Positions 18,701-59,467 of a DNA stretch of 64,000 nucleotides are shown here, piece after piece. Positions within the stretch are counted from its first letter, which is position 1. The number at the start of each line of letters is the position of its first letter. The stretch covers positions 11,301,538 through 11,365,537 of the forward strand of contig OX467091.1 of assembly GCA_950106755.1 (NCBI GenBank), in the 5' to 3' direction. The notes beneath the pieces are model-generated. The model worked only from the letters and a program-made list of their open reading frames with translations. It was not told the origin of the DNA and did no database searches. Made by a program: the position numbers and the translations under genes. The DNA comes from Climacium dendroides. Its lineage: Eukaryota; Streptophyta; Bryopsida; Hypnales; Climaciaceae.

Positions 18701-21700
18701 ATGTGGTGGCCGTCCAAATTCGAAGCATGATCTAGTCAAACAAACCGGAGTCAAGAGAATCAGTATACTATTCCAACTACCGTATTGGCAGGTGAGTTCC
18801 TTTTTTTCTGGTGTAGAATTTGGTAGACCTTACTGACTTGCAAAGTATTCAGATATACTATTGCGCACTTCACAGAAGTCTTGTAATTGGAAGGTCGTTC
18901 GGAACGGAAATTATTGTCTATCCACAAACATTTGAATTGCAAGTTTACCAGTACTGAAGAAGTAGAGAAACCTCTAATGAAGATGAAAGGTAATAGGAAC
19001 TATGTGTGTGAATGTTGGCTACCGTCACGCGTATACAAAGTTGTAAAGACCGTTGTTAGTAGTGTACAGTTTGAGGCCGTCTAGACATTTCCCAAGAAAA
19101 TCTGCGGTTGCGGGTATGAGTTACACGTTCGGTACTTGTTCACTGAGTGGTTCATGTCATTGCGCATTGTCATGGGCTTTGTCGGAGTCCTGTTATACAA
19201 AGAAGAACTGAAATGTCATAGTGACAATCCGTAGGTGTATAGCAGACTATTAGTTGCATATATATGTATGTTGATGAAGACTGCGTACCGTAGTTCAAGA
19301 TGTGGAGGTGAGAGTTATAAGAATTAAGCCCTTCATGGCATGTGTGTTAGTTGATGGTCCTTGGTGCGTTATTGTATTTGCCTGACAATGATGAAGCTAT
19401 AATGAAAAGGCTGGGTAGGTCGAAGACATTTGTATTGCATTTCAATCTTAGATAGGATGTCCAGCACTATAGTTCTGTACAGGATTCGAGGGGACTTGCT
19501 AATTATTTACCTTGTTGGGTGCAGTCTTTCAGTTTGTAATTAACATTTAGTATCATCAGAAATTTGTACATGGGCAGGGGTCATCGCCACTACTTAGAAG
19601 GGGGCTTACATTTTCCTTTAAACAGTCATGTTAGCTGAACATGTTTGCATTTCAATATTTACACATGCAGGTACTTCCAATACGGCACACGTTGGATCCA
19701 ATGCATTGCGAAAAAAACATTAGTGAAAATATTCTTCGCACTTTTTTCGGTGAAACAAATGGTGCTAAATCAAGAGAAGATTTGAAGGCACGTGGGATTC
19801 GACCACACCTACACTTGGAAGAGAATGCCGATGGACGAACTTTTTTCATGCCCGATGCACCATATGTATTGAGCGCAGAGGATCGAGAGGTTTTCTTGAG
19901 TACTTTGTAAGAGTTGAAGTTTCCTTCACAGTATGTTGGGGATATGAGGAATAAAATTCAACAAGGGAAGCTCCGTGGCTTGAAGACACATGATTACCAT
20001 ATTTTGTTGGAGCAGGTCATTCCACTGTGCTTACGAAACATTGGTGATCCGAAAGTGGTGGGAGCTGTCATGCGTTTGAGTAGACTATTTCGCAGAATTT
20101 GTGCGAAGGTCATTGATGTAGAGCAAAAGGAGAGAATGATTGAAGATGTTGCGGAGACTATTTGCTCTTTAGAAAAAGAACTACCGCCTTCCGTTTTTGT
20201 CATTATGATGCATCTTCCAATACACTTGGTAGAAGAAATGTTCATTTGCGGTCCAGTGCATACGCGATGGATGTATCCTTTTGAGCGGTATATGAAGGGT
20301 TTGAAAGGCTTTGTTAAAAATAAAGCCAAGCCAGAAGGAAGTATGGCATTTGGGTATATGAGGGAGGAATCAATAGGTTTTCTGAACGAATACCTCTCAG
20401 AATATACAGCAACAACAAAGTGGGCTTGGGACGACAAGGAAGAGTCGGCTATGTATGACGAAATCTTGGAGGGTGTGAAGAAAGATCGACCAATGAGTAT
20501 AGAATTCCAAGAACTCATCTACTCATTCGTGCTGGACAACACCGAGCACATGGAACCGTACAGAAGGTGTATATCCTGAATTTTTGGTCATAGTATCCAA
20601 TATGCATTTTGTTATTGTGATGTACAATGTGTATTATATAATTTTTAAATTCGATATTAAGTGACAATGTCACGAAATCTTATTAGTTCTGTGCATTGCA
20701 ATGCACGGAGAGCTTCAAGAATGGTATTCTTTGTAATGTAATGGAAGAAAGAGGTTCATGGAATCGCATATGCTTCTATTGATGATGTGGTCGAGGGGAC
20801 TATAGTCATCCTAGGAAGTGACGCGAAATAGACGTACATCTTTAGCCCTAGAAGACATTGCTAGGAAGGCAAGCAGAATTGTTTTAATTTCCTTCAATGG
20901 AGCAGAGCAAATGATGCATAGGTGTTGGAAGCGTTACTTCAATTATCTTGATCTTTATGGTCACATACGCTTGTTAAAGGAAATGACAATGATGCAGTCC
21001 TTTCTGATTTTGAACATGGTTTGCAATTCGTACACATCTGTGAACAGTGGACGTCCATGGACAGTCGGCAAACATGGAATAATAGAAAAATTATGTCCAG
21101 TAGTGACTAGGTTCATTGTTTGCTATGTGAATGGTCCATAGGAGATATGGAGAAGCAGTGGTGGAACAAGAACAACAGAGGAAAGACTACCGGCGCCAGC
21201 AACAAAGACGAGGGCGCAGAACTCGATTCTCATATCCGGCACATCTTCAGCAATTACCAAGTTTTGAAGTCTGGGTTCTGGAGGAGGTGAGAAGATAGGA
21301 ACAACTTGGCCTTCAGGTGCCCTCGGAGGTGGTGGACACTGCGAGGGGGCCATTGCCTATTGCGGCCTCTTATAAATCAATGTACGCATTTGAAAACCAT
21401 TATCGTGTTTTGAGCTCAGAGCAAGCACTGAAAATGGCCGATAGTGGAGTGGCTGCGACGTTCAAACAAGTTTGCAGAAATGGATTGCGAGACAACAATC
21501 AAGTCCATGGCGATATGGAATATGTAGGTCACATCGAGGAAATTCTGGAGTTGAACTACAGAAGGCATTGTCTACTTGTTTTTGTCTGCGATTTTGTGAA
21601 AGCTAATTACATTGGACAAAATGCAACTATCAAGAAGGATAAATGGGGTTTTACGTTAGCAAATTATGATCGGACATATGGAAGAGTTTGTAGAGATAGC

Positions 21701-24055
21701 TTTGCTTTTCCAATCCACTGCGAACAAGTTTTTTATTCCCAGGCAAAGGAAGCGCCAGGATGGAGGGTAGTTATGAGGAAAGAAGTGAGAGGAAGACATG
21801 TGCTACCTACTGATGAATGTGAGGAACAAGCGCAGTTGTTTGAAATGGAAGAGGATGATGCTTTTGAGGGGCTTCGTCCAGAAAGGGAAGTCGGGGAGGG
21901 ACAAGTACCTCCAGCAAGAACAGGACAGCATGTTTCACTGGACCCTGTTCCATCACCGCACAGGAACAGAAGTAGAGGTGGAGGAAGAGGAATTAGTCGA
22001 CGAGTTCGTAGTAGACGCGGTGTGTGTCCACATTTTGCACAGGAAGACAGGGTAGCAATGCATGCAGAAAACGACTTCTCTTCAGAAAAAATGGATGAAC
22101 AAGCAGAAGAGGAGTTTTTGTATAGGACGTGTGTCACCGAGGAAAATGAAGGAAGTGGAAGTGCAGCACTTCCGAACAGAGATTCTACTTCCAGGAGGGT
22201 TCAATTAAGAACTGAAGTACAAGAGATTTTCTCGGAAGAGGAGGGAGACCTTGCTGTAGGTGATGGAAGTGAGTGCAGTAGTTCGTCAATGTCTTGTGCT
22301 TCAATGAATTCATTAGGGAGCGACTCTGTACAGGTCAGTTCTCCAATTGTAATTCAATATAGTATGCATTGCTATTGAAGACTTTCTACATAATATAAGT
22401 GCAAGTAAGTGAGAGGCAAGTGAGTACGTGGAATGCATTTCAGACCACTTATTAGTAGCTTGTTGTTTTAAGGAAAGAAGGTTTGCATTTCTTTCACGTC
22501 ATTCACTTATTCTAGAACATTTCTACAGAAGCCTTACATGAGGAATGATTGCACAAGTGTGGTCAACCATTGTAGGTAGCCATAGGTAAAGAACATGGTT
22601 CATTTCAATGGAATGAAGGTCAACTGTGAAGCTTAATGTAGGGTAAGTGTAGTTCCGCATTCTGTGCCATTGTTGTTCTATTATTCACTACAGAGGAAAT
22701 GATTTTGAATGGAAAATGTTTGGAGGGACTGCAGGACTGAATATTGTCTTCACATGACTGAAGAACTACGACTGGAAGGTGCACACAAGTTGAATAGACT
22801 TGAATAGTTTATAGGAGTATGCCTGGCATAACGTCCTTGAAAGGTACTGGTACATCTGACATGTACAAGTGAATTGTCACCTGTATTTTGTGTTTGACGT
22901 ACAAGGAGTGACAAGTGTATATCGTGGTACCAATGCATTTGTAAATATAGAACGGGAAGTCTTCTATGTCTTTTTCTAAAGAGTTGACAAAGTACTAGAA
23001 GTGTACAGCACAGTGATATTTGAAGTGAGGAGCCGCTATAGACCATGAACTAAAAATTATTGGTTGCGTTTTTAGTATTCAGAGTTCTGTTCTGTACAGT
23101 GCCCACTAGGTGCTGTCGTAACATGACTTTCACATTCGGAATGGGTTATATGCATTTCAAGAGCTGCGGTGGTTGTTGATTCTATGGAGCTCTCCTAGCA
23201 TGTGATAGGAAGACATGCTGAAAGTATAGAGATTTCCAGAATTCTACACTAAGAAAGCAGAGCAAGTATAATAAGGAAATGCGGTGGAGGTGGAGGACAG
23301 AACATGTTGTCAGTTGTGCATGGGTCCTTCAGCACGTTTTTTAGTGCCCATATGTATCTGAAACGAGGACAACCGGATAGATATTGGGCTTTGTTGATGT
23401 GGTCCTTCAGTACTGCCATTGAAGAAGCCTTGAAAGTTATCGGTGATGTTGTAATAGTGACGTGCACAGAAGTTTCTATCATTCCATGTCATGCTTCAAA
23501 CTTAGTAAACGAGTGCATGAACCAAGTACTAGACGAAGGCTTATGGGATGAGTGACAAAGAAGAAGTCATGGACCCAACTCTAGTGATGCTGGAGCAAGT
23601 GCAGGACACACAAAGTAGTATGTTTTGTAGAAGAAGATGAAGTGCTGACATCGTCGGTACCAAAGTGTACAGGGTTTACACTTTCAGACTTTACATTTCT
23701 GCAGAATGCAATTGTCGTCGGAGAAACAGTGAATGATGGTCTCCTCAATAGCAACGTTGTTCATAAACTGAACATAGAATAAGTTATTGATTTTGTGATG
23801 TTCATTTTGAACAAATTGTCTGTCGGTTCAGTGGATGCCATGTTGCAGGACATTGGCGGCGTATGTGTCTTCTACCAAAGAATGTAGAGCACATGCATTG
23901 ACGTCGTAAGTAGATCGTAATTGTCTGAAGTTTTCCAAGGACTATGGACAAGGTTCTGCTTATTATGGACATGTGTGGATGGTAGGACTACGAATGGAAA
24001 TATTTTCTGCGAAGCAACGGTGCTGTGTCTCCTACCTACTGTGGGGCCTCTGGTT
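15715..24055 (+). mobile_element. CACTA (En/Spm-like) DNA transposon block, borders approximate
   Basis: GC content rises abruptly at about 15715 and falls again at about 24055, enclosing the Tnp2 transposase relic at 16924-22333. Sequence before the transposase (15715-16900) and after it (22379-24050) shows no other domain, although short splice-bounded stretches may be leftover exons; the open frame at 16569-16847 has basic, exon-like composition. I could not find convincing CACTA...TAGTG termini or a 3-bp target duplication, so the borders rest on composition and the transposase position only. Confidence 0.5.
16924..22333 (+). pseudogene. Tnp2-type CACTA transposase, inactivated
   Basis: Exons by eye: 16924-17160, 17283-18791, 19671-20566, 21142-21286 and 21317-about 22333, all with compatible phases. 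Domains in order: a transposase-associated Cys motif (YPCGCQRCHG), an acidic stretch, a CxxC pair (CCDCGKTLYW, CPKCKRSRY), the Tnp2 core (RMGLSLDGVNPH, IIPGPRSPSDETIDVYLAPL, MWTINDFSAY), a HTLDPMHCEKNISENIL segment, the DUF4218 region (GLKTHDYHILL, GPVHTRWMYPFERYMKGLKG) and a DUF4216-like region (HGDMEYVGHIEEILEL, WGFTLANYDRTYGRV). Two in-frame stops interrupt an otherwise continuous frame: TAA at 19908-19910 and TAG at 21296-21298. Both fit Gln codons changed by one C-to-T. The TAG could instead lie in an implausibly short 30-base intron. In life the protein would cut the ends of CACTA elements. Confidence 0.88.
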
Positions 24056-32529: not shown

Positions 32530-32770
32530 CATATATGAGGAAAAAAAGTCTTTGGGGTTCTAATTCAACGACGCTAGCGTGCGAGCCTTGAGCGGCGAGC
32601 TTGTGAGCTGCGAGCGTAAGCCTTGCGAGCGTGGAGCCCCAAAAATTATAAAAACCCAACCCCCCCTCCAAAAAAAAAAGTTAAAAATTTTTGTTCTAAA
32701 AAAAGACTTGTACTTACTATTTTTAGTAAAATTTGGGACCTATGACCAAGCCACCTATGACCGTGAATTT
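32530..32770 (+). repeat. Dispersed repeat with degenerate GAGC/GCGAGC tandem core
   Basis: The core GCGAGCCTTGAGCGGCGAGC...GTGAGCTGCGAGC is built of GAGC-ending words and is preceded by GGGTTCTAATT. It is followed by poly-A/T sequence and ACCTATGACCGTGAATTTTT. An inverted copy with the same block order lies at 47590-47720. It is non-coding. Confidence 0.6.
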
Positions 32771-32994
32771 TTAAAAAAAAATTATTTCAATAATTACCAT
32801 TTGAAATGTGAAAATTTTCTTCAACATTAGTATACAGTTAGGCATGTACTTCCAACTCTATAATGCAACTATGTATGCAATCACCAATCATTTATAGGAA
32901 AAGATATAATTAGTTTAGCAAAGAACACTATAAAAAATATTTGATGGACATTACCTAGCCTCCACTATAGCTGCTCTAGAAGAACTCTTAAGAC

Positions 32995-33125
32995 TTAGCT
33001 CAATATGGGGATTGCGCCCAACGGCATAATTTGGGACCTCACGGGATTCGAACCCAGGCCATCACATTTCAGTCTCATGGACCTCTCGCTAATATACTCC
33101 AACTTAATGGAGTGATTACTCAATT
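32995..33125 (-). mobile_element. tRNA-derived SINE
   Basis: On the minus strand an A-box-like TTAGCGAGAGG (about 33085-33095) is followed about 35 bases later by a B-box GGTTCGAATCCC (33041-33052), the spacing of a tRNA-type internal RNA polymerase III promoter. The arms needed for a functional tRNA cloverleaf do not pair well. The sequence continues downstream with non-tRNA sequence (AAATTATGCCGTTGGGCGC), as in SINEs. A degenerate tRNA pseudogene is the alternative. Confidence 0.55.
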
Positions 33126-33639
33126 GAAAAAAATAAATATAAAGCATAGAAGACGTCTTCCTAGAAAATGGGTAAGCAACCATAAAAGATAAATGACATG
33201 AAAGACAAAAGGAAAACAAAAGAAAGAAATGGGAAGTAAAATGTGAAAAGGAGGGTACTAAATTATACAAAATAGAAAAATAAAATGAAATACAAGTAAC
33301 AGTGGAGGAAAAAAAATAGTATGGACTTAGGATAGGAAAAAAATAAAAAAACATACAATTGCATGACGAAACAAATGAAAGTCAATATTAAGAAGAATGG
33401 AAATACTAATGGAAAGCCAAGGTAAAAAAAGGGGAAAGACATGTGAAATACAATTCAAGAAGAGAAAAAGAAAGAAGAAGGAAAAGAAAATGTCATTCAT
33501 ATTCATATTTTCATAACTACATTACCTCTTTCAATTGTAGTTTTCAAGCTTCCATTTTTCTTTACTTCCCATCAATTCAATGGTATTTTAAATATATTAA
33601 AAAAATACCATTCAAATACATATGAAGTTTAATACGTGC
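33126..33639. other. Purine-rich low-complexity sequence
   Basis: A/G-rich stretches such as AAGAAGAGAAAAAGAAAGAAGAAGG near 33445-33490 dominate. No gene was seen. Confidence 0.5.
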
Positions 33640-36600
33640 CTACTGTGGCATAGTGATTATTCCTGCTCGAAGTAAAAGAAGTTTCAACTCATTGAAACTA
33701 TAACTCGGTGCAGGAATGAATTTGTCGTCATGGATGTCCATCTTGCAGAAATATCGATACAAGTAATATAGGTGCTTGCAATTCACATACTGTTGACGTC
33801 CTCCAATAGCTAAAGTAGACATGTTCACAAAGTCTGGGCATGTGCAGGAAGGGAACATACCCACGGTTACTCGATACACATTTTTGTTCTGATCTATCCC
33901 AGTCTCCAGAGATATGATTGCTCCTAGTCCCGGGAAAGGAAGCAAGGTCACTCCCAAAATTTGACCTCTAACATTGCCTGCACTCTCCCACTTATTGCGT
34001 TGTTCTGCAGTTGGTGCATTTGCTATTCACCGTATGGTTCGATTGTTCCTCACTGTAGGATACACATCTGCATTTGTTGGCGGGACTTCATCATATACAA
34101 CACTTTCAAAAATCTTTGACATACTGAACAAACGACGTGGTGACAATGTAGGTTGTTCTTACAACCGGAAGCCAACATGTTGCAACAATAAAGTCTCGTC
34201 TCGACTGAGGTTTGTTCCTGTCAAAATAGGCCAAATTTCTGGCACATCCGGCCAATCTATTACCCACTTACGCTTCGTACCCTTCACACATCGTTCAATA
34301 TCATCTGTACAGAACCAAAAGTCTGCAAATACCTCTCGTTTTGTTCCGTAATCTTCTTTTCTACCACGATAAGTTGGAGCTGTTGTTCCCTTTCGTCCTC
34401 TTGCAATTCGAGCAGTGCACTTCATATTTGACCCTCGTTGCTGAGCTTGACACTTAGCATTAGATTTGTGACTGATCCTTGCAATGTATCACTTTGATGT
34501 GTCACAGTCACTTTCAAATGCAATTGTGACATGGTTATACATATTTGACTCTGGTTTTTTTCCTTTGCCTTCCGAAGAGTTTATAGGAGGAATAGTGGAC
34601 CTTGTTCGGACACAAGGTTGAGAGAAATTTACTTTGTCTGGTCGATGTGAGTCTCCTGCATCGCCAATTGGAATGTCCAATTTCCTCTTTGTACTCCCAA
34701 ATATCTCTTTTCCTTCCAAATGTGGTATACGACTTCCAATTCCTTCAGACCCAGGTAGGGAATTCAATGCTTCTGCCATTTTCTTAGGGTCTCCACTTCG
34801 TCTTGCAGCTCTCAACTTCAACTCCCCCTTTGACGGACCGGATCCAGAGGCATGGCCTCTCAAATATGCACAGTAGTTTGTCATTTGCATCCATGCACGG
34901 ATGCTATCATCACATGTGGCATCAAACAAATTGTTTCCTCGGTTGCTAAACATTTGAAGCCATTTATTATGAACTGTCTCTGATAGATTGCACGAAGGCA
35001 TATCTGCCATCTCTTCCAGATTCAAATCCTAGATATGCATCCAATAACCAAAATTACTTCTCATAATTACTTTCATTCATTCCACCTACAGAAAATACTG
35101 AAGACCATTAATTATGTGCATGTATAGTTCAAATGGCATAAAAGGCATTCCTAAATAATTAATTAGAAAACACATACTATTTATGTTGAAACAAAATAAT
35201 ACATCATCAATATACAATTCACTTTTTACGTCGAATATGACTAAAACTTGCTTGTACAGTAACAAATTTACATATAGAAAAGTGAATATTCTCTTACCAT
35301 TTGCATGAACCCCCCCCCACTGTTGGTATCTGAAATGCCAAAATGCCAACCAATGCTCCAAGTGATGAAGTGCATCTTCCGTAGCAGCACCTGATGATAA
35401 CCACCATGAACGAATTGCTAGGTAACGTGTCTCTGCCTCCTCCATAGTTTTAGCATCTTTATATTGTTTGCAGAGTGTATTGTGCTGTTGTTGAAATACC
35501 TCCTTAATATGTTTCTAAGTATGTTTTTGGAGAGAAGTACTCCAATGTAGTAAGCATGTCCTCTCCCTATTCTCCATTTTCTCATTGGCACATCCACTTC
35601 CGTAGACAATTCGAACTGCATTCCAATTGGCCATAGCACTATCTGCCATGAACCCTTTAAAGTTTGGGTGATCTAGTCCATGTCTTGACATGACAACATT
35701 CAATGACCTCCAGAATTGCACTTGAATTTCCGTATCTTCTGACTGCATATCACATGTTGCAATGGTCATTACCTTTTTGTACTCGGTATCGTACACGTGG
35801 CAAGCCATTGTAGTCCAGTCCTTCACACGCTTCACGTGGTCAAACATCATCCATGCATTCTGCAGATTCCCCCCTGGCTGCATGCGCTTCACCAAGTCTA
35901 CTCCACTACCAGGTCCTTCGGTCAGCATCTTGAAAAGGTATACCTTCTCCTTTCCTTGACTAGGAAAAACGCTATCATGAATGAACTCAAACTTTGAGTC
36001 TCTCTTCATGGTCATAATGTTGTCTATGACTCCTCCTCTATTGTTTGAGCGAAATGAAGAAATCACATTCCGAATGTTTGGACTGCTCAAATACTGGAAA
36101 CGACCCATCACTTCCTCCAATTCCTCCCCTTGCAACATCTTCTTCTCTTCATTTCCGTTGTGGAATAGATAGTTTGTAAGGAAGTCTTTGCTTGCTGATA
36201 GAGCAATGGCGGAGTTCGTGGCCGTTGGTGTTTTGGCCACTTGCTCTGCAATCAATTCACTAATCTTCTCTGCAGAATCTTTGTACATGCCTTTGGCAGT
36301 AGGGTGAGCATGATGTCCAAAATGAATAGCGGCCCTAGTCATTTTTGGATTCTCACTATAGCAGTAGTACATCCTAGCATCACAGGTGCTTAGACACGTA
36401 GGAGTTTTTCTACAGAGTTTGCAAACCAGAGTACAGTCTTTAGGAGGAGTATCCCCTACTGTGAAAGCGAAGGTTGTCGCATCAGTCCACTCAGTTTCGT
36501 TGCGCTTTGAAGCCCTCTTCAGATAGTCACACTCTACATTTAGACAAACAAGATGACCAGCGCAGTATGACTTACGGAACTTCAACTTGTCGAAGTTGTG

Positions 36601-37458
36601 GATGTTTGTAGTCACCAACTTGCACCATGGGTGTCCATCATATCTCTTGTCCATTCCTTCTAAGTTCTTCACCGCTAATGAAGAAGAAGATGAACAACAT
36701 GGAGGCAACTCAAATATGACATTTCCATTGAACATGGGTGGAAGAAACTGTACGCAATGGTGCTTCATGCTGTTCAAGTCCATCGTTGACAACTCATTTC
36801 GTGAACGATGCATTCTGCCTAATCCCCTCAAAGACTCCATTATACTGACTCGGTTCTCTAGATTTGGTGGCAATGGAGGATGGGACAGTTTAGTTTGACC
36901 TCCACTATCTGATGGATTGCTTGACACTGGCTTCACTGAAGCATTTCCCTGCCATGCAACTTCAATTTTGCATGCAGTTCTCCGGACTGTTAAGTCAGGG
37001 GACTCTCCTTCGGATTCACTAGACAACTCTATGATGGTATCTAACTTCTCAATTTTAACTGGGCGAAGACCTGAGTTATCAAAAAGGATTGGCAGAGCTT
37101 GACGACTAGGACTGCATGAAACCATATGAGCAACATATGGCATATCTACAGAAGAGTTATCTAACTGCCTACTTCGAATTTCGGTTGATGCATTTACCAT
37201 AGACAATGGTAGCCTATAAGCTCTATAGTTTCCAATAGGAAGATACCAATACTGACTTCCTTCCTCTATAGACTTCAATATTGGAATTGACTGCTGTACT
37301 TCTCCTGATTCAGACATTCTCTCTTCTTCTACATAGATGGACGACTCCACAAATCTAAAACGGACGTGCAAGAGATGGCTCAGAACTCTAGCGTGTCCAC
37401 CCTCATCAACTGGAAACACTAGGGGAATGTCATGGCCATCTACATGAATGCAAGCCAT
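33640..37458 (-). pseudogene. MULE-like transposase with Cys-rich and SWIM zinc fingers, inactivated
   Basis: The first plausible Met is the ATG at 37458 (MACIHVDG). Exon 1 runs to about 35293, and exon 2 starts after an intron at about 35031. A Cys/His cluster (CAGHLVCLNVECDYLK, CKLCRKTPTCLSTCDARMYYC, then TRAAIHFGHHAHP, about 36290-36570) precedes a DDE-like core (IATCDMQSED; FKGFMADSA at about 35640). Next come WWLSSGAAT and WLAFWHFRYQQWGG, then MADMPSCNLSETVHNKWLQ, and finally a SWIM finger (CTCPDF ... CKHLYYL, about 33758-33855). The frame is broken by TAG (35515-35517), TAA (34159-34161) and TGA (34027-34029), and by a G9 homopolymer (C9 on plus, 35310-35318) where eight G would restore the splice phase. 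The family resembles MULE-type transposases seen in bryophytes. No terminal inverted repeats were found. Confidence 0.82.
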
Positions 37459-38940
37459 GATACAATCTTCACTTGAAAACAATAGTGAAGATCAACTACA
37501 AATTTGTCTTTGGTGTTTTGAGTATGAATACTCACTCTCTTATAGTGCATTTTCATGCATATTGATTTTACTATACAACTAGTGAAAACTGAATAGGATA
37601 CTAGAAAGTAGTTAAACTTCAAATTTACCGGACATTAACAACTGTCTTGCAACTTCTACAACATTCTCATAATAGGGCCCCACAGTTAAACATTTATTGA
37701 TGTTCGCGGCTATACCTGGCACACTTACACTACGTATAGAAGAAGTACTTGCGCACCAATTTCAAAAAATAGAATAATTGGCAACTAAGCCTAGTACTCT
37801 AGTAGGCTCAGATTGTCTACAATAGAATTATTTGCGCAACAATTTCAAAAAATAGAATAATTGGCAACTAAGCCTAATACTCTAGTAGGCTCAGATTGTC
37901 TACAATAGAATTCTTTTTGCACCAATTATTTGAAAGTTGATAACATGACTACCACTGAGGTATACAGTACAAAAATATAATAGAATAACCTATTTTCCAC
38001 ATACAATAAAAAGGGATTGCATTGCAATTTTATGTACATAAATGAACACATCCATTTGTACTGTCTATGCTTCAGTAATTAGAACTGCTTTCAAAGCACT
38101 TCCTAAAGAAAGAAGATGGTTTATATATTCCCTCGGATTGCCTCATGGGGATTGCATATATATTCCTTCAAATTCCCTCATGGATGGCCCAAATGTCTAC
38201 ATTCATTACAATTGTGATGAATATGAAACTAACTTCTGATTGTGAGTTCTTGGCTAAACTTTATTTTTAATCCTATTTAACTTTCATAGTTTCTGGTAAC
38301 TATAAATCATGCCCAATGTTATGGATATAGTACAATAAACAATGAAATAAGCCAATCAGCCTGCCTCTTTAATTAGGTTCCTTCATCATGGCAAGTTCCT
38401 TTATCATTCATTGGCTTCAGCATACGGTGGCACACACCATTTTATAAGCCCAAGCCATTAACCTTACACAAATCCACATAACCCACATAATTGCATCCTT
38501 GGACAAGAAATGAAAATATTTATCTAGTGTAGAATGTGAAGAGAGTATAGTGGTATCGTAAAACTTAATTTTTCTATTCACTGTAGCGGAAATGTAATTA
38601 TTCGTATAGAGTAGAAATTGAAGATAATAGTCAGAAGAGAACTAATTTAGCATAGCATTTCTGAACATTTTGTGAAATTAAGAATTAATCTTTCTATTCC
38701 ATATTCGACAATAGTCATAATGAGTACTCTTCCATTTTGTATTCAACAAAATGCACTTAAAGTTTTTGGTTTCATGAAGTTTGGACCTGCATTAGAAAAT
38801 TCATTGATTTCTAAGTATGTTTTGAGTTGTGGCAACGGCATAGGGCACTCCAGTATTCTCATGATATAAGGTAGGTGGCTCTTAAACCGACCCTTAAGAG
38901 GTCATTGCATTTTTGGGAAAGCTAAACAACTCAAAACAAT
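37459..38940. other. AT-rich intergenic DNA with an 83-bp tandem duplication
   Basis: Apart from the duplication listed separately, nothing gene-like was found. The plus frames at 38042 and 38672 have no domain. Confidence 0.5.
37751..37914. repeat. Direct tandem duplication, 83-bp unit, two copies
   Basis: GCGCACCAATTTCAAAAAAT at 37751 recurs as GCGCAACAATTTCAAAAAAT at 37834. The two units differ at only a few positions through CTCTAGTAGGCTCAGATTG, so this is a young duplication. Confidence 0.9.
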
Positions 38941-40383
38941 TTTCAGTGAATTGGCGTAGAAAAAAAAATTGAATTGACATCTAATCCCAGTCGTTTCATA
39001 TTCTGTGGACCTTTGTGGAATTCGAATCCACTTGCAATTTCGACTCTAAATTTTTTGTTGACAGTCCTTGCAGCATTGTAAGCCCATGCATTGGAACGAT
39101 TGCCCAGTGCCCGAGAAGAGAATTTCACATAAATCCTGAAGTTCATGCATGAAACAGCGCAGTGTGAAGTTCGATGAATTGTCCCAAAATTCTGTGCATC
39201 GCTTCAGTCTATAGTCTCGTGAAAATTTCTACGTGACCTCACGACACCACAAAAGCAATCGGAACGGCTGGAATCCCAACTCACCATCGAGAACGAACTT
39301 CTTGAAATTCGTGGGTCACCGTATTCATTGGATACGGTGCTGTAGAGGAAGAGCCCGAGGGCCGTTCAAGGGTTAAATTATTACTGTCAGCCTGTTTATC
39401 GAGGTATTTAACCTTCTCTCTCAATACTCTTCTGCTGAGCAAGCTAGTTTCATGGAAATCAAGCAGGTTTTACGGTGCAGCCTTTTTGCGGTTGGTAGAT
39501 TTTGACTGGGATTCTTCCGTAAACAGCCGAGCTCATCCAAATGCATGCACCGAATTCATAACCACAAACCAAATTTGATTGAGATTCTTCTGTAAACAGC
39601 CGAGCTTGCGCATGCAAATGAGCATTTACTTTAAATCAGCATATTCTGAATTCCGGAAGAACTTTTAGCTTTGCGCACGGCGCTCCCCAGCTTTGTCCGG
39701 GCACTAACGTTCCCACACCAAAATGCCCTCCACTGCTTGCGCAAACAAAGCCTTTTAAGGCTTCGTTTTCGAATCCATCGCAAGCAAGGTGTGCCATTAG
39801 CTGATAATTACATGATGAAAAATACAGAGCTGATTCGGCAAACCTCGACAAACGTCAAAAACTACAGCACCTGACAACGTCGCATGCATGACGTGCCATC
39901 TCAGGATCTGAATTCGCTAAAACTGAAGACCACCGAAAATCCTTTTCCGACTGAACTACCTATACTCCATGTGCATCATTATGAGTTTGGAATTTCTTGC
40001 CATACTGGAATGACGGACCGCATGTGGCCATACTGACATCAAGGGAAGGAATGTTTTGAATTTGAAAAGCGTCTCCCGAGGTTCTTCCTGGGAATCTTCC
40101 GTAAGAACTTCCTTCCTCTAGCTTCGAATGACTGCAGTATAGAATTGCAGGGTCTCTCAGACATCCTCAACTACTTGCTTCGTGCTTGACGTTCTCAACT
40201 GCTTGCTTAGTACTTGACGTTCTCTTGTTCGAGTCTCTGGACGGTCCACGAGTTTCCCGTAGTATCCCTGAAGTCCCCTTCGGTAAGTGTCCTCTCTCCT
40301 CTTACTGTAGTTTCCAGTTAATATTTCCCGTTCATTTAAGCTTCATTGACTTGCTCTTGTATTCTAGCTGAACTTCTGTCGTC
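38941..40383. other. GC-richer flank upstream of the methyltransferase-like gene
   Basis: Composition rises from about 38950. GGCACTAACGTTCCC-like unique sequence and near-duplicate lines (CTTCGTGCTTGACGTTCTC at about 40180, CTTAGTACTTGACGTTCTC at about 40205; a TTCT(G)TAAACAGCCGAGCT phrase at about 39518 and 39590) suggest a promoter or 5' UTR region with small duplications. No protein was recognised. The 67-residue minus frame at 38943-39146 is not supported. Confidence 0.4.
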
Positions 40384-43300
40384 ATGCAGGTGGCTTCGAA
40401 CTTCGGCGGTACGCTCCATCCTCCGAGAATGCGGAACACTAGGAGACAGAAGCGGCTGCAGTCGGAAGAGGTGGAGCCGACACCGACTTTAAATGACTTG
40501 CACAACAACCAAGTTAGCATCGTCCTCCAATCGAGATGTCTGGCTCTCATTGCGAAAGATTTGAACTTTTTTCTACTCTGAAGATTCTAATATTTACAGC
40601 AGTTTTCCTGTTCATCTGGGGATACAGTTTGTCTGAGCAGTGACGATCAGTGAGCAACTATGCCAGGCATAGCTGCTTTTCCGTTTTTGATAGACCTTGA
40701 ATTGAAGATCGCCCAGTCTCTGTTTGGTAGACGAATGCCTTCGATCGGTCATAACAAATTGATCATTAGAATGTAGTTGAATTTCATGAACCGCTAGTTC
40801 AGCAGTTGGGGCGTCTTCCACAACTGGATCAACAATATGAAATAGAGGTTCTGTCATAGTCTCTGAAGTATTCTCCCGTCGCTGCGATCGTGGAAGAGGT
40901 ACGTGCATGAGTAGGTTCGCGATGAGGAGGTTCGGAAGTTCCGGAACATGCTGGGACTGGGAAGGCCAAAGTGACCAGCAAGACATGAATTGGAGGTAGC
41001 GTGAGCTACCCCAAGGAACCCTGTCGGGTCCGATAGGGTTCCCTGGGGTAGCTCACGCTACCCCCAATTCGTGTCTTGCTGGTCACTTTGGTGTCGTTGT
41101 GAGGATTCAACAGGGTCCTTCAACAGATTCAATAGAGCTACAGAGCTACTCCGCCATCGTGGTTTTCTTTTTCCATTCATCCAATCTTGTCCGTATGGTT
41201 CGATTGGGTACTGCAGTTAGGTACAGTACGCTTCGGTAGCAATATAGTAATGATGATAAATAGTGTTACGTATACTAATTGATTTAAAGAAGTCAACTAT
41301 TGGACAAAATTATTTTACAAAATTACATTTAGTGTTACATATTATTTCATCAAATTACAATGAAAAAAATAAAAACCTAAAAATATGAATTAAGAAATGG
41401 TGAACAAAACACTAAATGCAAACCAATTGAAATTTTGAGTGGGTGTGGTAGAAATTCAAGTAAAACTATTAGTAACATAACACTAAATACCATCATTAGT
41501 GTAGTCGACGTGACTTTAAGTTCATTGAGAAATTCATGGTCAATGCAAACGCCGTGGACCAAAACGCACACGCCATGAAAAAGCAAGACCAAAACCAGGA
41601 GTAGCGTGAACTACACCAAGGAACCCTATCGGACCCGACAGGGTTCCTTGGGGTACCTCACGGTACTCCTATTTCTCGTCTTGCTAACCTAGTCTCCATG
41701 GTGAGGGATGTTCAATATGCACGTCAGTAGTGGGTTTACAGTACGTTTCAGCAGCCATGTTTGGGTGCATTGACCGGGAATGACCTCAAGTGATGTCCAC
41801 GTGATTTTGTTTTATGTTCAAGTGCATGAGTTCTATTTTTTTAATTGTTTCGATTCCTTGAGTTTCCTCCCTGTATGATTATAAGGAAGGGGTAGGCATA
41901 TGTCATAAGAGGGCTTTCCCTATTTTCGTGCAAATTACAGAATTTATAAATATTTGGTATTCTAGCTATGTGAATGCTGAAATGGAAGTCAAGTAAGTTT
42001 GAGATGTCAGTTTCTGTTTTTAATATTGATTTTTTCTTCTTACTTTTTATTGATGTACTCTTAGTATTATTTTTTAAAAATTTATTCGATTGTAACTAAC
42101 ATTGGCCTACCTTATTATTAAAATGGTTTTGCAGATGAATACACATGAGAGTCTGAACGACCATGCCCTTTTACCAATACCTTCCAGTATGGCAATCCAT
42201 ATTGCAGATGTTGCGGGAACTTCGGAACCTAGGACTCCAGAAGATAGAAACATCAACATTGCTAGCCAGTCATTGCCTCATGAAGACACTGACTTGGTAA
42301 GCCTTGGAGACATTCTTGATGCTTGTGACCGAGCAGCTGATCAATTAGATGAACCTTGTTGCAGTAGGTTCAGTGATTCCAAAAAACGAAAACGAAAACA
42401 ACCAGTGTTCTCTCCTGAGAGTTCTGAGACTGAGTATAGTAGCTCTAATTGTCAAACATCAATATCCATTTCTAGTCCACCAATTGAGGATATTAGAGAT
42501 ATTGCTGGCAGCTCCGGATTGGGCAGGCACGATATTGTCCTCATCCACTTGAGTTTTGATTCAGATGCTAGTGTAGAAATTGATTGAGTTTGAAAGGAAT
42601 AGAGGCAGTTGCAGTGTTGCAGCATTTGTATTACTTAGTCATTGGTGTTATTATGATATGGGCGATTATGTATTACTTGTACAATCCTTTGTATTGAGAA
42701 TTTTCTTACCATCATAGTAAAGATTTGTTTTGCAAGTTGAACTTGGAACTTCTGGAGGACTTCCGTGTATTTCGTAATTGCTCTAAAAAATGTATATGAT
42801 CTTGCAGATGGAGGAGTCACCAATTAATCTGTCACAAGCAGAGGAAGTTCATTCAACTCCACCTACCAGTGAAAGAGGTCAACCAGAAATTGGCACTGAG
42901 GAAGAAGGAGATGTTGAGGTGAATGATGTTGATGAGGAGGAGGAAAAGGAGTTGCTGGAAGATGAACTCCGACGGTTGCAGAAGGTAGACTCTGTGGTCA
43001 CCATCGAGAGTTTGAGGATGAGGCCTCAGAAACACTCCCGAATGCGCATACCTTTGTGCAGATTGGTACCCATGCTAATGGTTAGGCCCACCCTCTCTTA
43101 TGATCTTGTAAAGCTTGAACAAGAGTTTGTTCATGGATATCGGGATGGAGCCGCAGTTTTTTATGTTTCCACAACTAATGAGGCGGGGGAGTCTTCTGAA
43201 TTCTCGAGAGATGAAATGGATGCTTGGGGTCCTTTGTGGAAATCAGAGAATGACATCTTCAATGAGTACTTAGATTCATTACCAGAGTTGAGGTACTTGA

Positions 43301-46300
43301 AGAACTCGAAGTTTTTTATCTGTGATGGAAATCACCGTCGCTTGGCGTGGATGAATCATATCTCGAGGCTGCATGTGGCGGATCGAGCTTGGCACATTTC
43401 AGTAGACAGCATCATTTTGGACACGAAAGGGAGAATAGAGCTTGTCATGCAGATTATGCATGACATCAATAAGTAAGCGTGTATCATATGATGTTGTTTG
43501 ATTGAACTTAATCTTTGACTTTTATTATTTTGTTATTCAATTTATTCATATGTATGAAATGATTTTATAGCCTAATGTGAATTGTAGGTCAACGGAGGAT
43601 TCCCATGTGAAGACCAATCTAGTTCATACTCTTTATCGTGTTCAAAAGTATGGGCTTCTTCCCATGGAGAAGTTCAATGAAATGTTGAGACCTTCTGAGA
43701 GGAAACGTTGTGGTACGCAATCAGTGAGAAAAACATGGTACTCAATGCCAATGGAGGTCTTCACGGCTTTTGTTTTTCGGGTAAGAGTGAGAATGTTCTA
43801 ACTATTTTATATATCTTTCATTTTAGGTCATTACAATATAGAAAGGGCTGAAGAATGTGCAAATTTGGTATAATTGAAATTGTGTTGATGTTATTTTTTA
43901 GCAAGAGATAGCTCAAGGAGCGGATGCCGCAGTACGGAAGTACAATGAAGTGACAGCATCTGAAGATAAAAGTGATCAAGGGGTGGCTAATGCCATGAGG
44001 GTTGGAGCTAAGGAGAAGGCGGCAAAGTTGTACGTGAAAATGGGAAAATTGCTTGCGGTGGCAAATCCTACTCACGGTCCAGGATTTCTGGAAGAGGTGA
44101 TGAAGATTTATGATGTAAAAAACGGTTGTCTTATTTTTTATTATTGTGATTTATTTAATGCTGAAAATTTTTTATTTCCTTGTGAAGGTTGAAAAGCATT
44201 GGACCACAAATGAGGTTCCTAAAATGACATTGGAAAAGCTACAAATGATAGCCACTTGCAATACCTCTGCAGCACAGAAGACAAAGTTGTTGAAGTGGTG
44301 GAACTTGTCCATGCCTTCACGGGATGCCAGACGTTTCCCTCCAAAGCTAGTTTCTGAAGATAAATTGGGGCCTTTCCTCAATAAATGGGTTTGGTGGGCA
44401 GGGGTAAGTGTTTGTATTTATGTAAATGATTTTTCATGTATATAATGACAAAATCATGAAGTACTACATTTTGCAGTTTTTGTTTTTCATGTATATGAAA
44501 CGATAATGGAGTTGTACTGATAAGAATATAATGCAGATTGAGGATAGTGCGGTAGAATACTTTGACAATGTAGTCAATAAAGATGGCCTAAAAATCAATA
44601 TGGCATCCCCACTTCAACGGGAGTATCTTCCAGAGTATATAGAAGGATGGAGAAGGAAGATTTGGGATCAAGGTTTTGGCCCGGCTTTGAAGGGATCAAA
44701 CCCTTTTAAGAAGTCGGAGACCTTCTCAAATTTTGATGGATCAAATGATGTTGTTTGTAGAGTTCTTTTCCGGTATGTTTATGTAAATATGAATTTTATG
44801 TTTCCTTACTTTCTTCGAAGGATGAGCATACGTAGTTATTTGTTCAGTGAATTTGTGTTATTTGTAACAAGGAATTCGGCTATGTGATTGTTACTAATTT
44901 TTTGAATGTTCTTATTGTAGGTATTTCAAGTACGAGCTTTTAGGGAAGAACGCCATACCTAGGGAGGATCTTCCTCCATTTCTAACCACATGGTTGGACT
45001 GGAGTTCTGAAGAGTGCATGTTCACGTCAAGCCAATTGAAGACATTCACGACGGCTCATCTAAGTGGTGGTGCGTGGTATCTAGATTGTCCGTTGACATT
45101 TACTCATCCATCGGAAGTAGAACTTCGGAAATCACTAGATGGTCTTGGCGTCATTGACTTGGAGGTTCCCGAATTCAACAACTACACTGATCAACAGAAG
45201 AAGAAAGCAATTGCAAGGAGAATGGTTGCTAACAAGAAGAAAGAGAACAAAGAGCAAGAGATTCATGAGAACAAGGAGAAGAAAGAAGCGGAGCGTCTTA
45301 TGAAGTTAGCAGAGAAGGAGAAGGAGAAAGAAGAGGGCAAGGGGAAAGGCAAAGGCAAGAAGAAAGAAGAAGGCAATAAACAAGTACCGGCGTCTTCAAC
45401 GGTTGATCAGAACTCGCATATGCAAAGTGGATCCCAAAGTGGGTTGAAGAGGAAGGCGATACTTCCAGATTTCATAAAGGACATCGTAACACAAGGTACT
45501 CAAGCCATAGTTCTTGGTGATGATGCAGACGTCACTTTAGAGGAATTGATCTTGAACGTCTCTATAGTGGACGTGATGGATAACATGGAGTCCGAGGTGC
45601 CCAAGTGCTATACTGAAGTGATGACCTTTTTGAAGAAGGTAACCATGATGCTTTGTCTAGAACTATGAATCCTTTTTTTTGTGGACCTTTGAAAAAAAGT
45701 TGTATAAATAATTGATTGTTTGCATAAATTCGTTTCTGCAGTTGGCACCAGGGAAGTCCCGTATGTATGGAGGTAAAGTGAGCCAAGCACCTTTAGTGGA
45801 CCTCATCTTCTTTGACTGCCAAGAGAATTTACCTGTCCCAAATGTATCTTCTCCAGAGAAAGCAATACCTTCATGGAATTCAGATCCAGAGTATGAAGCC
45901 ATTCAATCGGCCTTCTTCTTTGCAGATATGCACTTACAAGACCATGGGTGCATGATAGTATTTCAGTCGTGGTGTGCCGATTCAAAGGGCATTATTGCAG
46001 GATTGTGCGAGTCTTATCCTTCACTGGTAATGAAGAAGGAATGGTTGGGTATCAATCGTATGCATTTAACTTCAGCTGTGGAGGACTCGGAAACGGTTAG
46101 TGTTTTTCAAATATTTTCATAATTTTAATGGAAACTGGCATTGACAGATGGTTGTATTCTTTTCTAATACATAATTTTTTTGTGACTGTAGACTTTGAAG
46201 TTTGGAATCACTCTCTTGGTGAAGGACCTCGGTGATAAAGAGAACTCAGGGTTCTCTTTGAAGCGATCACAAGCAATGCAGAAGGCAAAAGTAGACCTAC

Positions 46301-46780
46301 GCAAGGATGATACATTAATTAACTACACAACTGAAGAGAGCATGTTGGTCAATCCACTAACCAAAATTCCATGGCAAGGGCCTCGTGAAAAGGATGCTAG
46401 GTTCTTCCAATTCCTTATAGAGGGGACAACTGAAGAAGGCGACTTGGTTTTCGACTGCACAGCATCCACTGGTTAGTTTTCATTTTAGTAACTGGATTTT
46501 CATATATGTGTTCATATAATGATTCATTGATATGAATTGTATTTTGTAATTTGTAGGTGCATCAATTACAGCATGTCGCAGCACGGGACGACACATAGTG
46601 GCTTTAGAGGAAGACAACACTGTTTTTCACGGCGTCCTTGAACCTATGAAAAGGAACATTGAAGAAGATGTGATAATAACTGAAACGCAACTGCCACTAC
46701 CGGCTGCATCTTCACAAGATTCGGATGCAATGATAGTGGTTCCTCGGAAATTTCCTCGCCGAACTAAACCTAGTAAATAA
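40384..46780 (+). CDS. ParB-like plus divergent beta-class DNA amino-methyltransferase protein
   Basis: The core model is 42808-43472, 43588-43780, 43902-44096, 44188-44403, 44537-44772, 44921-45638, 45742-46095, 46192-46471 and 46557-46780. All junctions are in phase with GT/AG borders, giving 1026 residues without stops. Possible 5' exons 40384-40512 and 42135-42296 also join in phase 0 (about 97 more residues). In core numbering, an acidic N-terminus precedes a ParB/Srx-like FFICDGNHRRLAW (DGNHRR 173-178). Residues about 590-660 are Lys/Glu-rich and probably coiled or disordered. The C-terminus has VDLIFFDCQEN (766-769) where N4/N6 methyltransferases have (D/N/S)PP(Y/F), then FDCTASTGAS (947-955) where the SAM loop DPFxGSGT sits, and HIVALEED (970-972), the ribose-binding acidic site. 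Motif IV before motif I is the beta-class order. The changed DPPY site raises doubt about catalysis. It may be transposon-derived. Confidence 0.75.
40966..41091. repeat. 126-bp near-perfect hairpin, copy 1
   Basis: Arms of about 63 bases start CCAAAGTGACCAGCAAGACA and end TGTCTTGCTGGTCACTTTGG, with the core GGTAGCGTGAGCTACCCCAAGG. The centre is near 41028 with essentially no loop. It lies within the putative first intron of the methyltransferase-like gene. It may be a fold-back MITE or a small-RNA precursor. Confidence 0.85.
41582..41685. repeat. 104-bp hairpin, copy 2 of the same family
   Basis: AGCAAGAC...GGAGTAGCGTGAACTAC on the left mirrors GGGTACCTCACGGTACTCC...GTCTTGCT on the right. 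The centre CCCTATCGGACCCGACAGGG matches that of the hairpin at 40966. Arms are slightly more diverged. The two hairpins bracket about 490 bp of AT-rich DNA. Confidence 0.8.
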
Positions 46781-46862
46781 GTTTTTCATATTTTTCAAGT
46801 GCTATTTGACATCCTACTTCTTCTATTTCGTGACTTTAATATTCTATATGTTTTTTTTGTAG

Positions 46863-47124
46863 GCGTAAGAAACTGATGTCCACAGATGCATTGAGGAAGA
46901 GACGCAAACTAGTACTAAGTCCAGAGAAGCCTTTTGATCTCCCAGTTTATGCTGAGCAATTAGCATCAACATTTGCAAACTTTGGTAGCTTAGAACCAAA
47001 ACGTAGAAAAGATACCTATGCTCTTAATGTTCTGCAATTTATAGATGAATCGGCAGCAGAGGGGAAAGAGACTTCAGAGTCTGAGAGTAGCTTGGCATCT
47101 GCAACTCAGTCCACTACAACCTAG
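46863..47124 (+). other. Possible additional last exon of the methyltransferase-like gene
   Basis: A TAG acceptor at 46859-46862 precedes an open frame with basic, coding-like character (TDALRKRRKLVLSPEKPFD) ending at 47124. A GTAAAT donor at 46773 would leave phase 1, while this frame needs phase 2. Either an unseen donor is used, or a one-base indel has detached this exon and the stop at 46778-46780 is now the real end. Confidence 0.4.
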
Positions 47125-48004
47125 ATTTATGAGATTGATATATCTCATGAGTCAAATTATTATGTATTCATTTACAGTATGATTTGATTTGATTGTGTGT
47201 TTTATGGCTACATCTTTAGTATGATTCATTCCCCTTCAACATTTTGCATTTTATGTTTTCTGTCAAAATTAACTCTTGAATGTCGGATAGGGTCCCGTAG
47301 AAATCAATGATTCTGGAACCGTGTGACATCATTTACTTTAACAATACCAAAAATAATTATTGGGAGTCAAAGTATTGTAGAAAATCTCTCTTTTCCACCT
47401 TTAATTATGTCGATGAATAGTTGCAGTTACGTCCTACATATGAGATTATTTTGTCATTCATTAGACATTTGACGTCCTATATGGCCTTTCTGGGTTGAAC
47501 ACAATTGGTTGTTGCAATTTTTTATTTCATTTAAGTTTATAAGTAAGTAAAATTTCAGAAGAATGAGCTCAAATCTTCACCAAAAAAATACACTTACATC
47601 CACGGTCATAGGTCCCCCACATTTTTTTAATAAAAAATCTTTCCCGCTCATAGGCTCACAGGCTCATGGACTCACGCTTACAAGCTCACCTGCTAGCAAC
47701 CCTGGGTTCTAATTAGTCTTCTCTTGACATGTCTTCTTTGAAATGTAGGTTCAAATGAGGCAAATTGTAACTTATTCAATATTTACTACTCTAGGTACTA
47801 TTATCAATCACTATAGTGTTAATATACTTGGTGTATTTCATAAGTACATATCATTAGAACACTTAAAAGAAACAAAATTGGTTGTTGGTTTCTGAATTAC
47901 CTACATGGTGGACATTGTGCGTCCATTGTTACCTACTGCTCTAAGAGTGTTTGTTGCAACAATTTTCCTTCTTTGCCGATGCAAACGCAAAGTCTCCAAC
48001 TACG
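47125..48004. other. 3' flank and AT-rich spacer
   Basis: It holds the inverted copy of the GAGC-type repeat (listed separately) and no gene. Confidence 0.45.
47590..47720 (-). repeat. Inverted copy of the GAGC-type dispersed repeat
   Basis: On the minus strand the order is AATTAGAACCC, GGTGAGCTTGTAAGCGTGAG, CATGAGCCTGTGAGCC, an A/T-rich run, then GACCTATGACCGTGG. This parallels 32530-32770. Confidence 0.6.
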
Positions 48005-58771: not shown

Positions 58772-58954
58772 GAACACCCATGGCTCCAGTCTCCCCCGAG
58801 ATCAAGCCTTCCGATCAAACTATTGCCATCTAATTTTTGCTGTAGATCGCCCATAGTCTTTGCGTAGTATTCAGCATTGTCAGCTCGGTTGTGTGGAGGA
58901 CACTTAGCTTGCTCTGGTACTTGGTGTGCATTCAATCAGCTCCCGTCGTTGAGA

Positions 58955-59467
58955 ATGGCACTCTTTCCGTTCATGGGGCGCCGCAACAACTTGTGGGACG
59001 CCCCCGACCCGTTTGATATGGTGGTGTCCGTGTTCGACAACACCCCGGCCAGCTCGTTCGCTCGCGACGCGCACGCGGTGGCGAGCACCAACGTGGATTG
59101 GAAGGAAACCCCCACGGAGCACGTGTTCAAGGCCGACCTGCCTGGGCTGAAGAAGGAGGAAGTGCAAGTGGAGGTGGAGGACGATAGGACGTTGAGCATC
59201 AGTGGGCAGCGCAAGAAGGAGGAGGTGCAGAAGACGGATACCTGGCACCGCGTGGAGCGGAGCTCCGGCCAATTCATGCGCAAGTTCAGGCTCCCGGAGA
59301 ACGCGAAGCTGGATCACATCACGGCGAAGGTGGAGAACGGAGTGCTGACTGTGGTGGTGCCGAAAGAGGAGAAGCAGAGACCGAAGACGCGCAGCATTGA
59401 GGTCGGTGGCCATGATGGCCATCAGGAGGCCATGGAGGTGAAGCCCGCGGAGAAGACTGCAGCATGA
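58955..59467 (+). CDS. Cytosolic class I small heat-shock protein (HSP20)
   Basis: Intronless, 170 residues from ATG 58955 ([12 protein letters not shown], the usual plant class I beginning); an upstream in-frame start would add a non-conserved leader. The alpha-crystallin domain covers about residues 47-145: [20 protein letters not shown] opens it, FRLPENA.LD and [10 protein letters not shown] (127-136) close it, and I148-E-V150 is the C-terminal I-x-I/V anchor. It has no targeting peptide, so cytosolic. It forms oligomers that hold unfolding proteins for refolding during heat stress. The Lys/Glu/His-rich tail (148-170) is longer than usual for the class. Codon use is GC-rich compared with the flanks, typical of highly expressed genes. 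The promoter carries heat-shock elements. Confidence 0.97.

Follow-up and report, generated by a model that had tools for sequence, protein, structure and literature searches.

Sola1-1_Ec32, a large DNA transposon of the brown alga Ectocarpus, carries on the strand opposite its transposase an accessory gene for a 1104-amino-acid protein that joins a ParB-like DNA-binding domain to an N4C/N6A-type methyltransferase domain, and the authors of that work cite green and red algal relatives (PMC12477816). They predict that the Ectocarpus protein makes N4-methylcytosine (4mC) or N6-methyladenine (6mA), and they propose that proteins of this kind attach to the transposon encoding them and mark it (PMC12477816). 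In the rotifer methyltransferase N4CMT, changing SPPY to APPA abolished 4mC addition (PMC8885841). Here we describe a DNA transposon within a 64,000-nucleotide stretch of the Climacium dendroides genome (contig OX467091.1; “the window”, whose numbering we use throughout). One of its two genes encodes a ParB–methyltransferase-like protein. This gene rides as cargo on a family of DNA transposons in a land-plant genome, elements that have short inverted repeats at their ends and are flanked by target-site duplications (TSDs) of 10 bp. The original prediction had taken it for a lone nuclear host gene; the unit to describe is instead the whole element at 32566–47704.

The window element resembles Sola1-1_Ec32, judged by its published description, in placing ParB-like and amino-methyltransferase-like parts in one protein of similar length (here the former is recognised by fold and the latter by profile), and in encoding that protein inside a DNA transposon, opposite a presumed transposase. 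It differs in its land-plant host, its 10-bp TSDs, its SWIM-like presumed transposase and its changed motifs IV and I. Sola transposons make 4-bp TSDs, and Mutator-like elements (MULEs) make TSDs of 8–11 bp; the duplication is 10 bp in all four copies examined at both ends, which departs from the Sola1 type and falls within the Mutator-like range. The layout also recalls VANDAL elements, plant MULEs in which an accessory gene beside the transposase encodes the anti-silencing factor VANC. VANC itself is not known to belong to the ParB or the methyltransferase proteins. A literature search, judged from titles and abstracts, found no ParB–methyltransferase protein in a land-plant transposon, which is not proof of absence. 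Set beside the algal proteins as described, what is new here is the land-plant host, the different kind of element and the conserved loss of canonical catalytic motifs.

The element, its ends and its opposite-strand gene are laid out as follows:
32566–47704 (no strand): whole DNA transposon, 15,139 bp, with two divergently oriented genes; ends sharp in other copies
32556–32565 (no strand): left TSD, GGTTCTAATT, 10 bp identical to the right side
47705–47714 (no strand): right TSD, GGTTCTAATT, 10 bp identical to the left side
32566–32637 (+ strand): left terminus, a short imperfect terminal inverted repeat followed by seven clustered GAGC
47646–47704 (− strand): right terminus, reading CAGGGTTGCTAGCAGGTGAGC inward and containing four GAGC in the copy in the window
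37458–35298 and 35028–33640 (− strand): presumed transposase gene in two exons, boundaries placed by eye

Across the genome searched (412.6 Mb in 123 contigs), a 30-mer over the DGNHRR motif of the ParB-like domain had 18 exact matches, versus none for its reversed control. Searching at the protein level gave 169 exon matches from 41 scored candidates, with identities of 79–100% among the matches listed apart from one at 50%; clustering the exact 30-mer matches with the first 52 protein matches gave at least 47 loci. We compared the window with the 17 other exact-match copies and with three upstream stretches. On the left, similarity stops at 32565/32566 in all three other copies read there. 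On the right it stops at 47704 in 16 of the 17 other copies, the exception being L022, with a match that ends early. The four copies examined at both ends all have 10-bp duplications, including GGTTCTAATT in the window, CTCGTGTGAT and TATAATATAG, with a single mismatch in one of the four pairs. The termini read CAACGACGCTAGCGTGCGAGC from one side and CAGGGTTGCTAGCAGGTGAGC from the other, and GAGC repeats come next. The sharp ends and the 10-bp duplications therefore define an element 15,139 bp long. By eye, the flanks past the right end differ between copies except in L013, L014 and L015; these three lie on contig C3 (2.79–2.97 Mb), and because their right flanks are near-identical they probably arose by duplication of a host segment, not by separate insertions.

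Rebuilding the ParB–methyltransferase-like gene from its frame and splice signals gave a core of nine exons at 42808–46780 (+ strand) encoding 1032 amino acids, with GT–AG introns of consistent phase. Two likely upstream exons bring the product to about 1129 amino acids. In this product a long middle region connects the ParB/Srx-like domain to the methyltransferase-like one. The gene and the features in and next to it are:
40384–40512 (+ strand): likely first coding exon, 43 in-phase codons ending at GT, inferred from frame and donor only
40966–41091 (no strand): near-perfect palindrome with 62-nt arms, in intron 1
41582–41685 (no strand): weaker second copy of the intron-1 palindrome, related to 40966–41091
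42135–42296 (+ strand): likely second coding exon, 54 codons, with AG acceptor, GT donor and a phase that joins the core
42808–43472 (+ strand): exon with the ParB/Srx-like domain, fold at 43033–43470, DGNHRR at 43324–43341
43588–43780 (+ strand): coding exon, from frame, splice signals and copy comparison
43902–44114 (+ strand): coding exon, from frame and splice signals; donor GC in L029
44188–44403 (+ strand): coding exon, from frame, splice signals and copy comparison
44537–44772 (+ strand): coding exon, from frame, splice signals and copy comparison
44921–45638 (+ strand): coding exon containing a Lys/Glu-rich linker, from frame, splice signals and copy comparison
45742–46095 (+ strand): methyltransferase-like exon with the motif-IV-like DCQENLPVP, DCQEN at 45814–45828
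46192–46471 (+ strand): methyltransferase-like exon with the opening part of the motif-I-like DCTASTGAS, from 46453
46557–46780 (+ strand): methyltransferase-like exon with the end of motif I, an acidic residue region and the TAA stop
46864–47124 (+ strand): conserved downstream open reading frame (ORF) that might serve as an alternative C-terminal exon; aligns to L029 without gaps at 90% identity, nonsynonymous-to-synonymous ratio (dN/dS) about 0.26

The frame of the likely first exon is open in all four other copies that cover it whole, three of which keep the GT donor; in L009, which lacks 40452–41936, the exon is cut by the deletion. The likely second exon is open in 16 of 17 other copies, with a stop in L011, an altered acceptor in L021 and an altered donor in L012. 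DCTASTGAS is split across two exons (46453–46471 and 46557–46564). We sought an in-frame GT–AG intron linking the 46864–47124 ORF past the TAA at 46780 and found none. The RNA of the palindrome region (40940–41120) has a predicted folding energy of −136 kcal/mol (z −15), and by this model the intron-1 palindromes could be a source of hairpin small RNAs.

Comparison with a second subfamily shows how the gene has been kept. Its copy L029 has 81–93% DNA identity to the window in exons and 59–84% in introns, with AG at all eight core acceptors, GT at seven of eight donors (GC at the other) and one in-frame stop. The dN/dS of the ParB–methyltransferase-like gene against L029 is 0.15 at a synonymous divergence (dS) of 0.48, with 0.11 in the ParB part and 0.20 in the methyltransferase part. 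Against L030, a decayed subfamily copy used only pairwise, it is 0.21 at a dS of 0.21 (0.05 and 0.30 in the same two parts), and in no part of the gene does dN/dS exceed 0.40. The contrast between exon and intron divergence, the kept splice sites and the dN/dS against L029 mean, on comparative grounds, that the reading frame is not chance. Moreover, these substitution ratios show purifying selection keeping the gene as the element multiplies, and since the diverged subfamily copy also has the two-gene layout, the gene is maintained as part of the element. The subfamily copy shares the right terminus at 88% identity. Within the gene, dS is 0.29 in the methyltransferase part versus 0.47–0.71 in the ParB, middle and third parts.

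Among close copies, the core frame is open in two of 18 (the window and L023), and the other 16 have stops, frameshifts, truncations or insertions. Variant counts use 15 of the 18, with L019, L020 and L022 omitted for insertion, deletions and truncation. In these 15 copies, C-to-T or G-to-A accounts for 465 of 564 changed cells; exon C-to-T rates per site are 0.42 in CG, 0.47 in CHG and 0.12 in CHH, the corresponding intron rates are 0.56, 0.50 and 0.13, and A or T sites in exons show 0.01–0.02 changes of any kind per site. The pattern suggests plant-type cytosine methylation and decay after insertion. A land-plant host is indicated both by this plant-like context and by a plant-like small heat-shock gene, the HSP20 gene at 58868–59467 (+ strand), whose closest PDB entries are HSP16.9B from wheat (E 3e-43) and a class I small heat-shock protein of 18.1 kDa from pea (E 3e-42). 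Because the C-to-T spectrum distorts simple Nei–Gojobori (NG86) estimates of dN/dS between near copies (0.42 when pairs are pooled), we repeated the analysis with a context null. Variants common to at least two of the 15 copies then had a missense ratio of 0.57 with one stop, and singletons a ratio of 0.81 with 17 stops; few shared and many singleton stops are what is expected if gene-intact elements spread. The original prediction had read the preserved frame as selection or a recent arrival, of which selection is borne out and a single arrival is contradicted by the loci and TSDs.

The ParB/Srx-type fold with a DGxHR-type motif was recognised by structure prediction and structure comparison over 43033–43470. 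Predicting this region from a single sequence gave no usable fold, with a predicted local distance difference test score (pLDDT) of 32. DGNHR is present in 76 of 83 aligned sequences of this exon, and the 862 matches at E≤1 that it has in public protein predictions, out of 7996 scored candidates, point to a large family. Querying 5.8 billion proteins with the whole protein gave no match at E≤1, whereas piecewise queries gave matches. A Pfam scan of the 83 members matched no family named ParB; weak matches were to KMP11 (seven members, best E 0.0047), DUF1015 (six, 0.002), and, in one member each, DndB (0.032) and DUF6551 (0.18). DUF1015, DndB and DUF6551 are presumably kin of ParB. The only PDB sequence match of the exon profile was a ribosomal protein (E 0.15). 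Compared with the CTPase DNA clamps ParB, Noc and KorB, the window protein shows 10–18% identity in the comparisons listed, contains an inserted region, and has DGNHRR where the ParB motif is GERR; no helix-turn-helix was identified, none having been specifically sought. Phage ParB–methylase proteins offer a further likeness, as the DNA methylase of Mycobacterium phage Vincenzo matches the ParB-like model (E 0.026). We also considered a phage or giant-virus origin, which is unsupported for the ParB exon: a tblastn search of 50,697 phage records with this exon gave no match, a search of IMG/VR with the same exon alone gave no confirmed match, and the ‘viral’ structure matches show merely a ParB fold.

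The 256-residue C-terminal piece matches PHROGs methyltransferase and DNA methyltransferase families (E 6.6e-8, 7.7e-8 and 1.6e-5), CcrM (E 0.0026) and N6_N4_Mtase (E 0.0038), all over the half that contains motif I. With a profile of six sequences, both halves align collinearly to DpnA and DCQEN falls on DPPYN, at a sub-threshold E of 0.63. As in the β-class amino-methyltransferases CcrM, DpnA and rotifer N4CMT, motif IV precedes motif I, and these profile matches, though weak in part, show methyltransferase ancestry for the C-terminal region. Unlike in those enzymes, DCQEN and DCTASTGAS stand in place of the catalytic motif and the S-adenosylmethionine (SAM) loop, so that the window has DCQE and TxSxG for the canonical [DNS]PP[YFW] and FxGxG. 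We found four outside homologues, three of which cover motif IV (P0001, FDCQENLPVP; P0002, FDCQENLPVP; P0004, ADIPENLPVP). Since all three have D-x-[QP]-E-N-L-P-V-P, the departure from DPPY is, by alignment, a family trait rather than damage in the window copy. Because Pro-Pro-Tyr of motif IV and FxGxG of motif I are replaced in conserved family sequence, we consider canonical methylation of N6-adenine or N4-cytosine the less likely activity. A module that binds, or that has taken on another task, is a likelier reading of the methyltransferase part than a standard methylase is. The start at 40384, the DGNHRR motif, the C-terminal β-class order and the two motif replacements of the original prediction are all present.

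The product of the opposite-strand gene is about 1180 residues long, has a part rich in Cys and His, and carries a SWIM-like CxC..CxH at its C terminus; we presume it to be the transposase. The window copy of the gene has several in-frame stops; in L027 both exons are open, and in L026 and L028 the gene is interrupted. The Pfam SWIM matches fall below cut-off (E 0.061 and 0.031), and hmmscan found no match of the MULE domain PF10551 to it, none of the 60 genome matches at E≤1 lying there. Both divergent genes are present in all four near copies read upstream, the window included, and the one diverged subfamily copy read also has the opposite-strand gene upstream, with 90–93% protein identity and in-frame stops. 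The dN/dS of the presumed transposase against the subfamily copy is 0.21 and 0.10, so that, judged by sequence divergence, both genes evolve under constraint within one element family. Between the genes lie an 83-bp tandem repeat of 2.3 copies (37741–37927) and five TTGCGCA sites (37749, 37832, 39606, 39671 and 39737), two of them inside the repeat. In the element, TGCGCAA occurs seven times against 0.5 expected and CATGCA 12 times against 3.3 (uncorrected for the many words counted), and the remaining overrepresented words come from the termini and palindromes. All five TTGCGCA sites are kept in L027 and L028, as are both of those covered in L026; none is present in the subfamily stretch L031. 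Because of that absence, the cluster is a lead to possible binding sites, not a shown site.

Overall, we favour with moderate confidence the reading that this is a selected transposon accessory protein, ParB–methyltransferase-like and probably not a conventional methylase, that aids transposition or resists silencing. Its ParB-like part, alone or nucleotide-bound, would hold the protein on DNA of the element that encodes it, for which the GAGC repeats next to the termini and the stretch separating the two genes are candidate sites. The methyltransferase-like part would serve there to bind DNA or to sense SAM, or would be an enzyme whose chemistry has changed, and the protein would thereby help the element to transpose or to resist host silencing. 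Several observations weigh against this. The transposase label draws on gene layout and position, the weak SWIM match and terminal structure. The stretch between the genes, a candidate binding region, is not similar in the subfamily copy. Pfam and NCBIfam matches do not reach the curated thresholds, and the profile match in the PDB has an E of 0.63. The copies show heavy C-to-T decay, so any anti-silencing must be incomplete or transient, and permanent protection is disfavoured. Finally, dS between subfamilies is 0.48 for the ParB–methyltransferase-like gene versus 0.21–0.27 for the transposase, with different near copies used for each gene; since dS differs between the genes and also within the former, recombination between subfamilies is possible.

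A rather unlikely alternative is that the protein works as an amino-methyltransferase and, through an unusual but functional motif IV, places 4mC or 6mA on its own element; 4mC or 6mA is what the Ectocarpus authors predict for their protein (PMC12477816). The β-class order, weakly collinear with DpnA at motifs IV and I, would agree with activity, as would purifying selection on the methyltransferase domain (0.20) and retention of the first Asp and the Asn of DPPYN in DCQEN, the distant homologue P0004 having DIPEN. But motifs IV and I have established roles in amino-methyltransferases, and here both prolines and the tyrosine of motif IV are changed and TxSxG replaces FxGxG. The APPA mutant of a eukaryotic amino-methyltransferase is, moreover, inactive (PMC8885841). 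The 10-bp duplication, the SWIM-like finger and the divergent accessory gene would suit a Mutator-like element in which the accessory gene counters silencing in a way analogous to VANC; the plant-type C-to-T decay, which suggests that copies become methylated, and the five TTGCGCA sites kept in L027 and L028 point the same way. The missing PF10551 match, the short terminal repeats and the absence of TTGCGCA from L031 speak against it, and on balance we think it unlikely.

Captured gene fragments are frequent in large plant transposons, and 16 of 18 close copies are broken in the core frame, as might be expected of a gene that was captured passively and does nothing for the element (pack-type transduplication). 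A dN/dS of 0.15 overall and at most 0.40 in any part, conserved exon structure, two-gene linkage in the diverged subfamily copy and the algal transposon precedents (PMC12477816) make this very improbable. That the window copy is intact while the adjoining transposase gene is broken might recall a domesticated host nuclear gene or a recent single arrival, yet there are dozens of copies, with element ends and TSDs around the window copy and three others. A lone host gene is thus ruled out by copy number, termini and TSDs, and the flanking 10-bp duplication together with identical termini elsewhere refutes the host-gene explanation for the window copy; taken as a whole, it is scarcely credible.

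Elsewhere in the window, an ORF for a Tet-like 2-oxoglutarate–Fe(II) oxygenase (PF20515, E 7.5e-39) at 12133–12840 (+ strand) lies upstream of a CACTA-type transposase cluster at 17274–22378 (+ strand; Transposase_21, E 1.5e-65; DUF4218; DUF4216 below cut-off). If the two belong to one element, it would be a second transposon in the window with a base-modifying accessory gene.

More broadly, the family may represent an abundant new class of land-plant transposons in which a ParB-type clamp fused to a non-catalytic or re-tasked methyltransferase fold serves as a self-recognition factor, for DNA marking or anti-silencing in bacterial style, a possibility we regard as tentative and doubtful. With the accessory protein favoured here, transposon-encoded ParB–methyltransferase proteins would extend from algae to a land plant and to a further type of transposon, and the family, with its many copies, some intact and some broken, opens the bind-and-mark proposal from algae to direct testing.

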